Of a stretch of 42,196 nucleotides of DNA, positions 22,602 to 27,082 are shown in pieces; within the stretch, counting starts at the first letter, position 1, and each line of letters starts with the position of its first letter. Below the pieces are notes generated by a model that was given only the letters and a program-made list of their open reading frames with translations, ran no database searches and was not told the DNA's origin. Origin of the DNA: Lachnospiraceae bacterium. Lineage in GTDB: Bacteria; Bacillota; Clostridia; Lachnospirales; Lachnospiraceae. The stretch spans positions 1-42,196 of the forward strand of contig JAFQOE010000013.1 in NCBI GenBank assembly GCA_017395635.1. Reading direction: 5' to 3'. Both the position numbers and the translations under genes were made by a program.

Positions 22602-25547
22602 ATGAATTTAGAAAATGTAAAGTATGATGCCTTCATAAGTTACCGACATTGTGAACTCGACAAATTTGTAGCAGAGAACCTGCATAAGCAACTAGAAGCC
22701 TTTAAAATACCTAAAAGTCTAATCAACGCCGGTAAAACAAACGGTAAAACAAAAATAGAACGTGTTTTTCGTGACCAAGAGGAACTACCTCTTACCAGTA
22801 ATTTGGCGGACCCTATTACAAAAGCATTACAAGGCTCTAATTACCTAATTGTAATCTGCTCCCCAAGACTCCTTGAATCAAAATGGTGTCTTAAAGAAAT
22901 TGATACCTTCATCTCCATGCATGGAAGAGAACGTATTCTCGCTGTATTAATCGAAGGCGAGCCTGACGATTCTTTTCCAGAAATCCTACGATTCTACGAG
23001 CAAGAAACCATAGACGAATTCGGAAATACCCGCATCGAGAGAGTCGAAATTGAACCATTAGCAGCTGATGTTCGAGGCAAAAATAAGACAGAAATACTAA
23101 AACAAATCAAAAGCGAGATGATGCGTCTCATTGCACCAATGCTCAACTGCAATTATGATGATTTAAAAATGAGACACAAAGAAGCACGACAGAAAAAAAT
23201 TCTTCGTATCTCTTTTGCAATCAGTCTTGTATGTTTAATCTTTACAGCTATTAGCACTACAATGGCATTAACGATTCACAAACAAGCAAATACAATAGAA
23301 GCACAATATCAAGCTGCTTTAGAGAACCAAGCCATCAGTTACGCTTCCATCTCTCAGACACTTCTAAAGCAGGAGGACCGTATGGCAGCAACAGCAGTCG
23401 CACGAATGGTCTTGCCAGACTCATTAGATAACCAAAAAGATAAAGCTTATACCGCCGCTGCTGAATTTGCTTTATCAGACAGTCTTGGTATTTACAACAA
23501 CGGAAAAAACAATTTTCCAGTCAAATCATTAGAACAAGCTAGTCCGATTCGTTTTATGATGGTTTCTCCTGATGAAACCAACATAACCACAGTGAATACA
23601 AACGATATTGTTACAATATTTGATGTCGCACGAGCCTCTACTATTACTTCCTTTAAATGTTCATCCAGTGTCTATAATGAATCCGACATCACATATCTCG
23701 GATCCGATAAACTTACATACATATTCGATAACGGTTTTTTTATTTACGACATTCCTACTAAGACAGAAACCTTTTACGAATTGGACTCAATGGCTCTTTA
23801 TATTAATACATCCTCTGACGGAGCATATATCGGAATCTGTACCTTTAATAATTTTATTATTTGTGATCAAAACGGAAAATGCTTGTATTCAAAACCTATT
23901 CCGTCTACACACACAGGGGATAATATCTTTACTTTTAACCCTGAACAATCCCTTTGTGCTTTTGCTTGTCACGCATCAGATACAGGCAACGGAATTTTAT
24001 ACTTAGTCAATTATGCCACCGGCAAAGAAATATACTCTGTAGAATTTGATATCTCTAGTTTTAACAAGTGTATTTTCTACGGAAATCAACTCATTGTTTC
24101 CGGACAGAAAGACACTTCCTCTAGTTATGACTACGCAAACTATTCATCCAATACACATGTATTTTCTTTTCCTTTTGATAACAATACACCCAATTGGGAA
24201 TTTGTACAGAATAATTCTTCTTTTGATGAATTAACAGGCACATTACAATGGGAAAATCAAACCATAGTTTTATCAGGATATAATGAGATTGCATTTATCA
24301 ATGGCAAAAACGGAACCCTAATTCACTCTACTGCACTAAATTCCGAAATAGTAGATATTGCACTATTATCTACGGAAGGTTCCCTTTTAGCTAGTACAGA
24401 ACAGGGAGAAAAAATACTTGTCATGTATGATCCAAACTACAGAGACATTGTTATGGAGGAATTTGATACTAGCAACGGTGAATTTTCCGATTTTTATTAC
24501 TCTAACGAATTTGTTGCCGCTTATCATAAAAACTCAACCACAATTAATATATATCAAAAAACCACCAGCGATAAAGCCGAAAACATTGCAACATTCGATG
24601 ATTATATCAACAACAGCTTTTATTCAGCCAAACAAAACACTTTCCTCGTAACGACGTATGATAACCACTATTTCTTAAAACACGATGATACAGAAAATGT
24701 TATTACAATTGCGCACGACAATTACACAAATGATATATTTTTCATAGGAGATAACGAGGAACAAATTGTATTCGTTAACGAGGATTCTTTAACTTACTAT
24801 GATGCATTCACCGGAGATCGTCTGAAAGAACTCTCCATATCCGATGAATTTATCCAATTCGGATCACTTCCTTCCGCATACATTGACTGTACAAAAGACC
24901 ACGAAACAATTGTTTACACTTCATCTGATAATAAATCCATTTGCCTGTATTCCATCAGTGAAAACATCGCAACCACCGTTCCTTCACCAAAAATTCTACC
25001 TTCTACAGTAGAACGTATAGGTATCAATGAAACCGGAGACAAATATGCCATTGCATGTACAGAAGACAATACTTTATCTGTATTTGATAAGGATAGCCAC
25101 CTAATTGTCGAAACCGAAATTAATGCTGCTTTAGTTAACAACATCATCATTTCCGATACCGCCAATTGTGTAATTGTCTCTTATTTTGACAAAACAGTAA
25201 CATTATATCAATTGTCTGATTTGTCGCCATTGAAAACATTTACCAATATTCGAAATAATATAGAAAGATTAGATATCATCTCTTTCCATAGCGACGATTC
25301 AAACACACCTGCATATGCACTATATGATAAACATGAATGCTATTTATTAGATAAAGATTTAGAACAAATCGCACGCATACACAACTATACTGCATGCAAC
25401 GAAGAATCTAAACTCTTCTATCTTTGCAATGGAAATCAGATTTTTTCGGTACCATATTATAATTATGATATGCTAATAAAAGAAGCCGACAAACTATTAG
25501 AAAACTATGAATTGTCGAACTATCGAAAAAACCAATTAGGTATATAA
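22602..25547 (+). CDS. TIR-domain membrane protein with beta-propeller sensor region
   Basis: A 981-aa protein. Residues 6-150 form a TIR domain: YDAFISYRH (8-16), RVFRDQEELP (54-63), IVICSP (83-88) and SKWCLKEI (93-100). E99 matches the glutamate used by NAD-cleaving TIR domains. A basic linker containing EPLAADVRGK follows, then one membrane helix (about 200-224), a short helical stretch, and about 690 residues of repeated beta-strand blocks resembling WD40 propeller blades. The propeller would be outside the membrane and the TIR inside. SD GAGGAG is 9 bases before the ATG. It converges with the RCK-RyR gene across a shared terminator. Ligand and NADase activity are not shown; a scaffold-type TIR is the alternative. 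Confidence 0.85.
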   Translation: MNLENVKYDAFISYRHCELDKFVAENLHKQLEAFKIPKSLINAGKTNGKTKIERVFRDQEELPLTSNLADPITKALQGSNYLIVICSPRLLESKWCLKEIDTFISMHGRERILAVLIEGEPDDSFPEILRFYEQETIDEFGNTRIERVEIEPLAADVRGKNKTEILKQIKSEMMRLIAPMLNCNYDDLKMRHKEARQKKILRISFAISLVCLIFTAISTTMALTIHKQANTIEAQYQAALENQAISYASISQTLLKQEDRMAATAVARMVLPDSLDNQKDKAYTAAAEFALSDSLGIYNNGKNNFPVKSLEQASPIRFMMVSPDETNITTVNTNDIVTIFDVARASTITSFKCSSSVYNESDITYLGSDKLTYIFDNGFFIYDIPTKTETFYELDSMALYINTSSDGAYIGICTFNNFIICDQNGKCLYSKPIPSTHTGDNIFTFNPEQSLCAFACHASDTGNGILYLVNYATGKEIYSVEFDISSFNKCIFYGNQLIVSGQKDTSSSYDYANYSSNTHVFSFPFDNNTPNWEFVQNNSSFDELTGTLQWENQTIVLSGYNEIAFINGKNGTLIHSTALNSEIVDIALLSTEGSLLASTEQGEKILVMYDPNYRDIVMEEFDTSNGEFSDFYYSNEFVAAYHKNSTTINIYQKTTSDKAENIATFDDYINNSFYSAKQNTFLVTTYDNHYFLKHDDTENVITIAHDNYTNDIFFIGDNEEQIVFVNEDSLTYYDAFTGDRLKELSISDEFIQFGSLPSAYIDCTKDHETIVYTSSDNKSICLYSISENIATTVPSPKILPSTVERIGINETGDKYAIACTEDNTLSVFDKDSHLIVETEINAALVNNIIISDTANCVIVSYFDKTVTLYQLSDLSPLKTFTNIRNNIERLDIISFHSDDSNTPAYALYDKHECYLLDKDLEQIARIHNYTACNEESKLFYLCNGNQIFSVPYYNYDMLIKEADKLLENYELSNYRKNQLGI

Positions 25548-25595
25548 TTTACACATAAGCAACACGTCTATTCATATAGTTTTCAACAAAGAAAT

Positions 25596-25624
25596 AAAGG
25601 ATTGGGAAATTCTCCCAATCCTTT
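25596..25624. terminator. Bidirectional terminator shared by convergent TIR and RCK-RyR genes
   Basis: A perfect 12-bp stem, AAAGGATTGGGA (25596-25607) with TCCCAATCCTTT (25613-25624), around a 5-base loop. It lies 49 bases after the TIR stop and 22 bases after the RCK-RyR stop, with A/T-rich tails on both sides, so it can terminate both transcripts. Confidence 0.85.
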
Positions 25625-25645
25625 TACTATGATTTAAATCAATTT

Positions 25646-27082
25646 TTATTTCATTTGTTCTTTCCGATATTCCTCGATAAACTGTTCCACAATCACCTGA
25701 TCTTTGTCAATCTCTTCCTGAGTCAGCTCATTGAACGGAACCAAACATGGATGTGTTCGAAGCATCTTATTCTTTTCTTCTCCAAGCACCCAGTTATTCA
25801 TATAATGATAACGGCACCATCGGATATGCTCTAATTCTGTCAAAATAGCTACCAACTCATTATGCGAAAGTGTATCTCCATAATAATCAATATAGCGTCT
25901 TCTTACCTCATTAAAATCTGCCGAAGAAATATTAGAATAACGAAGAAATGCAGATAAATCCTGCCATTCTATTTTCCAATCCGGATTTGTAACATTCTCG
26001 TTATAAAGATTGTGTGTTTTAATTGCATTCTGATTCAATTTCTCATTAAGAATATAGTCTCTTGTACACAATTCTTCCATAGATGCAAATGGTTTAATAA
26101 CATCTGTTGTTCCAATCAACTCCAACACATCTCTATCGTAAATAGAAGCATACAATTCCACATCCGGTTTCATATTATAATATGCCAAGATATTACTTGC
26201 CACCATCATATTGTCCCTGTCTCTACCACAAAAAACAATTCGATCTGCTTGGGAAATCAATTCCCTTTCTTGATATATAGAAGAGTCATGTGCAATAATC
26301 TGATCCGGAAGCATTTTATCCAACTCTCGATGCCAATCAAAGAAATGATATGTCTCTCCAAAAATATGATATTCTATTTGTTGTTTCGAACTAAATATGT
26401 TACTGAGTAAGCCATACTTTAACACTTCTTGACCTAAATCTTCAAATCCAACAATTAAAATACGATACTTGCCTTTTTCTATCTTCTCGAAAGGAATCGC
26501 TTCTTCTCTCCAAAAAAGACGCGCTGCAATCTCCGTCATCGAAAATACATGGAGACTAGGATTCTTAATACTTAATTGATTCATTTCATTTAAATGAATA
26601 TATACTTGTTTACCTTCCAATTCGTTTTGATGCTTGGTATAAAAATCAATATTCTCCTCATCGGTATCAAACAAAATCACATGTTTGTCAGCATGAATAA
26701 TCACATTGTCCACCGGACGAATCCCTCTATGTGCAAGACTACTTAACAAAAATTCTCTTGTAACAGAATTTCCATACACTACAATATTATTCTTGTTAAA
26801 TTTCTTAAACCAATTCGACAAACGCTTGCCTAATGCTTCAATTACCAATATCACACCACTCGCAGTGGCAAATGGTGCCATCCAACGAGCAACCTCTACA
26901 TATCCATTAATCACATCCGGCAAATCAGCATCCATTCCATACAAGCGACATGCCATATAAGCAGCATCAATTATATTACCACCATTTAGTTTACTAAGTC
27001 CTATTGTTCCTAATATAAATGGCAACACAAATATTGTCAGTTGTAATACTCGAATCAATATCTTTCGTATTTTATTTATCAT
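25646..27082 (-). CDS. Membrane protein with two NAD-type Rossmann modules and a C-terminal RyR domain
   Basis: A 478-aa protein. Two hydrophobic helices lie at about 9-28 and 66-86, then a first Rossmann-like module (NIVVYGNSVTREFLLSSL, about 98-150), a second (YRILIVGFEDLGQEVLKYGL, about 205-330), and a C-terminal segment (416-478: IRWCRYHYMNNW, LRTHPCLVPFNEL) matching the bacterial RyR (ryanodine-receptor-type) domain. The Rossmann parts resemble TrkA_N/RCK NAD-binding regulators of potassium systems. The segment between the helices lacks a potassium selectivity filter, so a channel is not evident. It follows the GGDEF gene by 14 bases. The ATG at 27082 has GGAG eight bases upstream. Confidence 0.75.
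   Translation of the reverse strand: MINKIRKILIRVLQLTIFVLPFILGTIGLSKLNGGNIIDAAYMACRLYGMDADLPDVINGYVEVARWMAPFATASGVILVIEALGKRLSNWFKKFNKNNIVVYGNSVTREFLLSSLAHRGIRPVDNVIIHADKHVILFDTDEENIDFYTKHQNELEGKQVYIHLNEMNQLSIKNPSLHVFSMTEIAARLFWREEAIPFEKIEKGKYRILIVGFEDLGQEVLKYGLLSNIFSSKQQIEYHIFGETYHFFDWHRELDKMLPDQIIAHDSSIYQERELISQADRIVFCGRDRDNMMVASNILAYYNMKPDVELYASIYDRDVLELIGTTDVIKPFASMEELCTRDYILNEKLNQNAIKTHNLYNENVTNPDWKIEWQDLSAFLRYSNISSADFNEVRRRYIDYYGDTLSHNELVAILTELEHIRWCRYHYMNNWVLGEEKNKMLRTHPCLVPFNELTQEEIDKDQVIVEQFIEEYRKEQMK

Follow-up and report, generated by a model that had tools for sequence, protein, structure and literature searches.

We analysed a 42,196-nucleotide stretch of DNA from a gut bacterium of the Lachnospiraceae (contig JAFQOE010000013.1 of assembly GCA_017395635.1; hereafter the window), in which a TIR gene on the plus strand (22602-25547) converges on a RyR/RCK gene on the minus strand (25646-27082); the gap that separates the two holds a 13-pair hairpin (25596-25624) that is terminator-like on the minus strand. 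An earlier reading of the letters alone (the sequence-only reading) had described this as a TIR membrane protein converging on an RCK/RyR membrane protein, which we confirm, and had proposed that the two form a signalling module linked to nicotinamide adenine dinucleotide (NAD), which the data below support. The 981-aa TIR protein consists of a TIR domain (aa 11-123, 22632-22970; Pfam TIR_2, 2.5e-11), the one membrane helix that had been claimed (aa 200-218, 23199-23255, by hydropathy, with a long helix at 185-256 in the structural model), a first WD40-type beta-propeller (aa 302-655, 23505-24566) and a second all-beta stretch that is a probable propeller (aa 656-951, 24567-25454; low to medium confidence). 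Tandem-propeller IFT-A chains align structurally across residues 304-961. In Pfam, TIR_2, TIR and ThsB_TIR all scored above their cut-offs (ThsB_TIR at 26.8 bits against 21.2), and the propeller matches were weak. The TIR domain contains W95-x-x-x-E99 (E99 codon at 22896-22898), a candidate for the catalytic glutamate of an NAD-cleaving enzyme (NADase), and the W-x-x-x-E motif is kept in all six aligned propeller-TIR proteins, so the residues on which the sequence-only reading had relied hold up in alignment.

The 478-aa RyR protein is modelled by AlphaFold as membrane helix 1 (aa 2-32, 26987-27079), a short pore-like helix (aa 37-48, 26939-26974; Y48 is kept in 64 of 64 aligned proteins), membrane helix 2 (aa 60-93, 26804-26905), two RCK-type Rossmann folds (aa 97-193, 26504-26794, and aa 205-332, 26087-26470) and a RyR domain (aa 407-467, 25682-25864), all on the minus strand. 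RCK structures of GsuK with NAD or ADP and of TrkA with ATP-gamma-S are among the structural matches, which bear out the two NAD-type Rossmann modules that had been read from the sequence; membrane helices with a tandem of RCK folds behind them are the layout of an RCK channel. RyR (PF02026) is the sole Pfam match (2e-8; 34.8 bits against a cut-off of 27.4). Of the profiles that the sequence-only reading had expected, TIR and RyR were therefore found above cut-off and propellers weakly, and TrkA_N did not match the window protein although it matched a counterpart from Arcobacter. In CASTOR/DMI1, GsuK and TrkA, too, a two-helix membrane part precedes a pair of RCK folds, but these proteins have no RyR domain and are 10-18% identical in the structural alignments. 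The animal ryanodine receptor (Repeat12) differs in being a giant Ca2+ channel with another pore, whereas here a single RyR repeat sits on a small RCK-type protein. As side observations, a 707-aa protein adjoining the RyR gene at locus L133 (8179-10302) matches Castor_Poll_mid below threshold, the second time that plant-type RCK channels are hinted at. At eight loci (L093, L109, L120, L121, L150, L155, L216 and L218) two RyR-type membrane proteins are direct neighbours, usually a shorter one (near 475-545 aa) and a longer one (550-800 aa), which would suit an effector made of two subunits.

A precedent for a RyR domain acting on TIR products is RyDEP, a phage RyR enzyme that cleaves 2'/3' cyclic ADP-ribose (2'/3'cADPR), as described in a 2026 preprint (PMC13232231), on which all statements about RyDEP here are based. 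There, TIR-made 2'/3'cADPR is bound by RyR domains and can be cleaved by them; RyDEP contacts the ligand through H75, W78, H100 and D117, of which H75 and D117 are catalytic (PMC13232231). Six of eight RyDEP homologues formed a complex with the signal, and cleavage was seen with the founding RyDEP only, the other tested homologues giving none despite high sequence conservation (PMC13232231). The link between TIR and RyR is therefore chemical and goes beyond a shared name. The window protein carries the same PF02026 domain and the same four residues at identical spacing (H419, W422, H444 and D461), and when HMMER aligned its RyR domain to a RyR1 chimera, the H, W, H and D were as in RyDEP and RyR3. 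All four residues are invariant in 18 of 18 proteins from a whole-protein search (alignment A1). In a larger alignment (A2), made of the window protein and 63 of the 72 RyR open reading frames (ORFs) of 440-530 aa among 74 complete ones, the other nine being dropped for brevity only, H444 is kept in 64 of 64 and D461 in 63 of 64. The H419/W422 block (EHxRW[CSN]R[YF]H) was the search pattern of the A2 sample, which partly accounts for its invariance there, and the 18 rows of A1 are therefore the fair test. Phage RyDEP stands alone as a protein and either destroys the signal or sequesters it (PMC13232231), whereas the window RyR domain sits in a host membrane protein paired with a TIR. At two loci (L135 on G225:C13 and L130 on G077:C1) a free-standing RyR ORF of about 95 aa immediately precedes a TIR gene, a RyDEP-like domain on the host side. 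Phages of Arthrobacter, Erythrobacter and Brevundimonas (H1-H8) encode proteins, mostly annotated as hypothetical, with a RyR-sized match to the window protein, which makes them candidate RyDEP relatives.

To quantify how often TIR and RyR genes lie together, we sampled 299 genomes of the family, 45 of which had a match to the RyR protein, and scanned these 45 together with G003, G016 and G038 for TIR_2 (48 genomes, including that of the window). A TIR_2 match was present in 36 of the 48. The distance from a TIR to a RyR match was at most 2 kb in 13 genomes, as against 0.18 expected, at most 5 kb in 20 (0.38 expected) and at most 15 kb in 23 (1.05 expected), where expectations assume uniform placement and rounded genome sizes; none of 200,000 simulated sets reached the observed counts. 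A separate RyR-only scan confirmed 185 relatives, and the best 80 were kept as loci, at least nine of them on contigs of the first genome set. In the stretches around these loci (up to 10 kb per side, with some contigs ending near the RyR gene), a profile built from 31 TIR domains found 49 TIR ORFs, 40 of them within 1 kb of the RyR match and 48 within 4 kb. A TIR ORF lay within 500 bp of the RyR gene at 39 of the 80 loci and within 5 kb at 47. Among ORFs of at least 300 aa, TIRs made up 38 of 108 within 1 kb as compared to 1 of 226 beyond 4 kb (Fisher 3.7e-20, on ORFs that are not independent). The 38 close TIRs were codirectional and downstream in 19 cases, divergent in nine, convergent in five and codirectional and upstream in five. 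The pairing of TIR and RyR genes is thus real, and the two genes recur together in other genomes, which the sequence-only reading had named as support for the module.

Beyond what that reading had proposed, we found that the partner TIR varies, that DUF4062 can replace it and that the pair moves as one cassette. Pfam searches of ten TIR partners identified MORN repeats in three (preceded in some partners by a membrane helix), a STAND-like ATPase with TPR in one, TPR in one, propellers in one and TIR alone in four, and the partners cluster into a few families. When partner classes were mapped onto a quick tree of the 64 RyR proteins, they required 23 changes, as compared to a minimum of 6 and a shuffled mean of 37.2, indicating that partners are in part inherited and in part exchanged; the labels are cluster names, and some 'MORN-like' members are short and show no MORN matches. 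The propeller-type partner may have had one origin. At three loci (L155, L193 and L192, the last on the same contig as L099) a DUF4062-STAND protein takes the place of the TIR beside the RyR gene. DUF4062 has been reported as a TIR-like NADase in the Swarozyc / DUF4062 paper (PMC13174449), the available part of which contains no occurrence of RyR. Relatives of the window pair resemble Swarozyc in that DUF4062-STAND or DUF4062-TPR proteins replace the TIR; in contrast, the window partner is a true TIR, which matched TIR_2 and not DUF4062 in Pfam. On an Arcobacter plasmid, from another phylum, proteins matching TrkA_N (5.2e-9), RyR (4e-10) and DUF4062 (1.6e-14) are encoded by consecutive genes (L270; CP146529.1, 42451-54837) near a type I restriction gene, an integrase and recombinases; the similarity of the Arcobacter protein to the window RyR protein is weak outside RyR. 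Three further plasmid records match RyR; none has an annotated TIR nearby, and one has a SIR2 family protein. On a Methylobacterium plasmid (L271, NZ_CP107533.1), a 910-aa protein combines an AAA-like part with a RyR domain and is encoded close to a SIR2 family protein.

The pair is gained or lost as a unit. In the genus-mate G010, the amidase and GGDEF genes that flank the window pair (65-71% identical to those of the window) are 174 bp apart with neither pair gene between them, as compared to an interval of 4745 bp in the window, so the pair behaves as one cassette. G003 has the pair at the same place; the RyR proteins are 83% identical and the TIR proteins 53% overall, with a TIR domain at 82% and propellers at 48% and 42%. 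G016 retains both genes as eroded, adjacent remnants at a different position (L107; G016:C72:37899-38569), next to genes that by eye look HEPN- and nucleotidyltransferase-like; the pair decays together. Of the 26 genomes of the genus, two hold the full pair. We rejected a tie of the pair to the GGDEF or amidase genes, since these persist together without it in G010 and the G016 remnants lie away from them. A phage-borne cassette was also rejected: viral contigs gave 28 pattern matches, none confirmed as a relative, and eight phage records hold RyR-sized matches only, none covering 80% of the query.

The pair resembles Thoeris in that a TIR protein is encoded with a separate effector carrying a domain for NAD-derived ligands, the two genes are neighbours (convergent in the window, not in an operon) and the TIR scores above the ThsB_TIR cut-off. 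ThsA-type effectors are of SIR2-SLOG, macro or caspase types. In contrast, the effector here is a two-helix RCK/RyR protein and the TIR is membrane-anchored with propellers; the partner matched RyR only in Pfam and nothing in PADLOC or NCBIfam, and none of the Thoeris models scanned in PADLOC and NCBIfam scored above cut-off for the pair. It is not ThsA/ThsB Thoeris, as the sequence-only reading had also stated. PADLOC gave a weak PDC-S66 match for the TIR protein alone (4.8e-6) and no match for the RyR protein or four neighbours. In NCBIfam 20.0, no model was above cut-off for ten partner or RyR proteins or for the window pair, all TIR protein matches being sub-cut-off. A full-text literature search found no description of TIR-RyR pairing, the Yirmiya 2025 preprint being outside its reach; among the sources found, PMC13232231 alone, in its available part, treats RyR domains in a TIR or Thoeris setting, and does so from the phage side.

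Taken together, these data suggest, with a probability of about 0.6, a Thoeris-like two-gene signalling cassette, probably serving to raise an immune alarm, in which the TIR protein makes a signal and the RCK/RyR channel receives it. A sensor, here beta-propellers predicted to lie on the outer face, would activate the cytoplasmic TIR domain, which would make from NAD+ a messenger of the ADP-ribose type, an isomer of cyclic ADP-ribose (cADPR) being the most likely. The messenger would bind the RyR domain of the partner protein, the RCK ring would then open the membrane pore, and the resulting ion leak would halt growth of the infected or damaged cell. More tentatively, and as something we would not yet count on, the pair could be a bacterial counterpart, used in immunity, of the animal route from cADPR to the ryanodine receptor, with a RyR channel opening on TIR-made cyclic ADP-ribose and the RyR fold of RyDEP originating on the host side. 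If so, TIR signalling would gain an effector in the form of an ion channel that a RyR domain gates, and there would be a natural host receptor for the ligands destroyed or soaked up by phage RyDEP proteins. The old question of direct cADPR binding by RyR repeats would become testable in a small bacterial protein, and the exchange of TIR and DUF4062 beside a constant RyR protein would mean that both kinds of enzyme can feed one receptor.

Several observations weigh against the signalling cassette. Twelve of the 48 RyR-bearing genomes have no TIR_2 match; at 33 of the 80 loci no TIR lies within 5 kb (two of these TIR-less loci, L146 and L208, each contain a piece grouped with TIR partners by clustering), 30 have neither TIR nor DUF4062 at that distance, some on cut contigs, and many of 20 neighbours annotated at TIR-less or mixed loci are metabolic genes. 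Conversely, 12 of 60 relatives match the TIR protein and eight of these 12 lack a RyR match, so related propeller-TIR proteins work, or persist, without RyR. In four of 11 TIR alignment rows, some of them TPR-type partners, no glutamate is aligned at the E99 column. On the RyR side, Foldseek alone returned nothing at E<=0.001, the pore was modelled as a monomer only, and no TVGYG K+ selectivity filter follows the short helix; the same filter is missing from CASTOR (PMC6697748). The window flanks are housekeeping genes without a defence island, and a propeller outside the cell would be an odd sensor of phage inside it. To test for defence neighbours, we took 110 of 120 ORFs around 12 RyR loci (L094 without TIR) and, for comparison, 12 other stretches (11 and G204) of the first set's genome list with 110 of their 158 ORFs. 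At 1e-10, 56 versus 13 PADLOC families matched; of the 25 families listed, many are overlapping models matched by one member, and the test is therefore weak.

The same chemistry could serve another purpose, the TIR protein sensing envelope or surface damage instead of phage. The putatively outside propeller, the membrane helix before MORN repeats in other partners and the housekeeping flanks fit this account, but patchy presence, cassette movement, fast sensor divergence, DUF4062/STAND exchange and the Arcobacter copy near a restriction gene and recombinases fit immunity, and we consider the damage-sensor account unlikely. The RyR domain might instead be chiefly an enzyme that hydrolyses the TIR signal, making the RyR protein an off-switch or a self-limiting effector and not a plain receptor. 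Both RyDEP catalytic residues have counterparts in H419 and D461, and this conservation of the glycosidase pair makes such a role a serious rival; the free-standing RyR ORFs at G225 and G077 point the same way. A pure hydrolase, however, needs neither a two-helix membrane part nor an RCK pair, and most tested RyDEP homologues formed a complex without cleaving (PMC13232231), so we judge it improbable.

Direct sensing by the RCK folds is also a rival because they could bind nucleotides: the TIR would deplete NAD+ and the channel would respond to the level of NAD(H) or adenine nucleotides. The nucleotide-bound GsuK and TrkA matches agree with this, as does the GFGxLG motif kept in the second fold of the family consensus; in the window copy, however, that motif is degenerate (GFEDLG) and the first fold has none, while the RyR pocket residues are invariant, which leaves this account decidedly improbable. 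Chance adjacency of two unrelated genes would fit their convergence outside any single operon and the RyR genes without an adjoining TIR, but the genome and locus positional tests (simulated placement and Fisher 3.7e-20) contradict it, and as a general account we reject it as extremely improbable.

Two minor observations concern other TIR and RyR neighbours. The window's own genome has two further TIR_2 domains (G000:C170:20263-20616 and G000:C59:24658-24927), on contigs without a RyR match. At eight of the 80 loci (L144, L148, L167, L173, L176, L181, L185 and L204), a family of proteins of 512-571 aa is encoded no more than 4 kb from RyR; Pfam matches two of them to DHH phosphoesterase, and the family is possibly a third component that degrades the signal.

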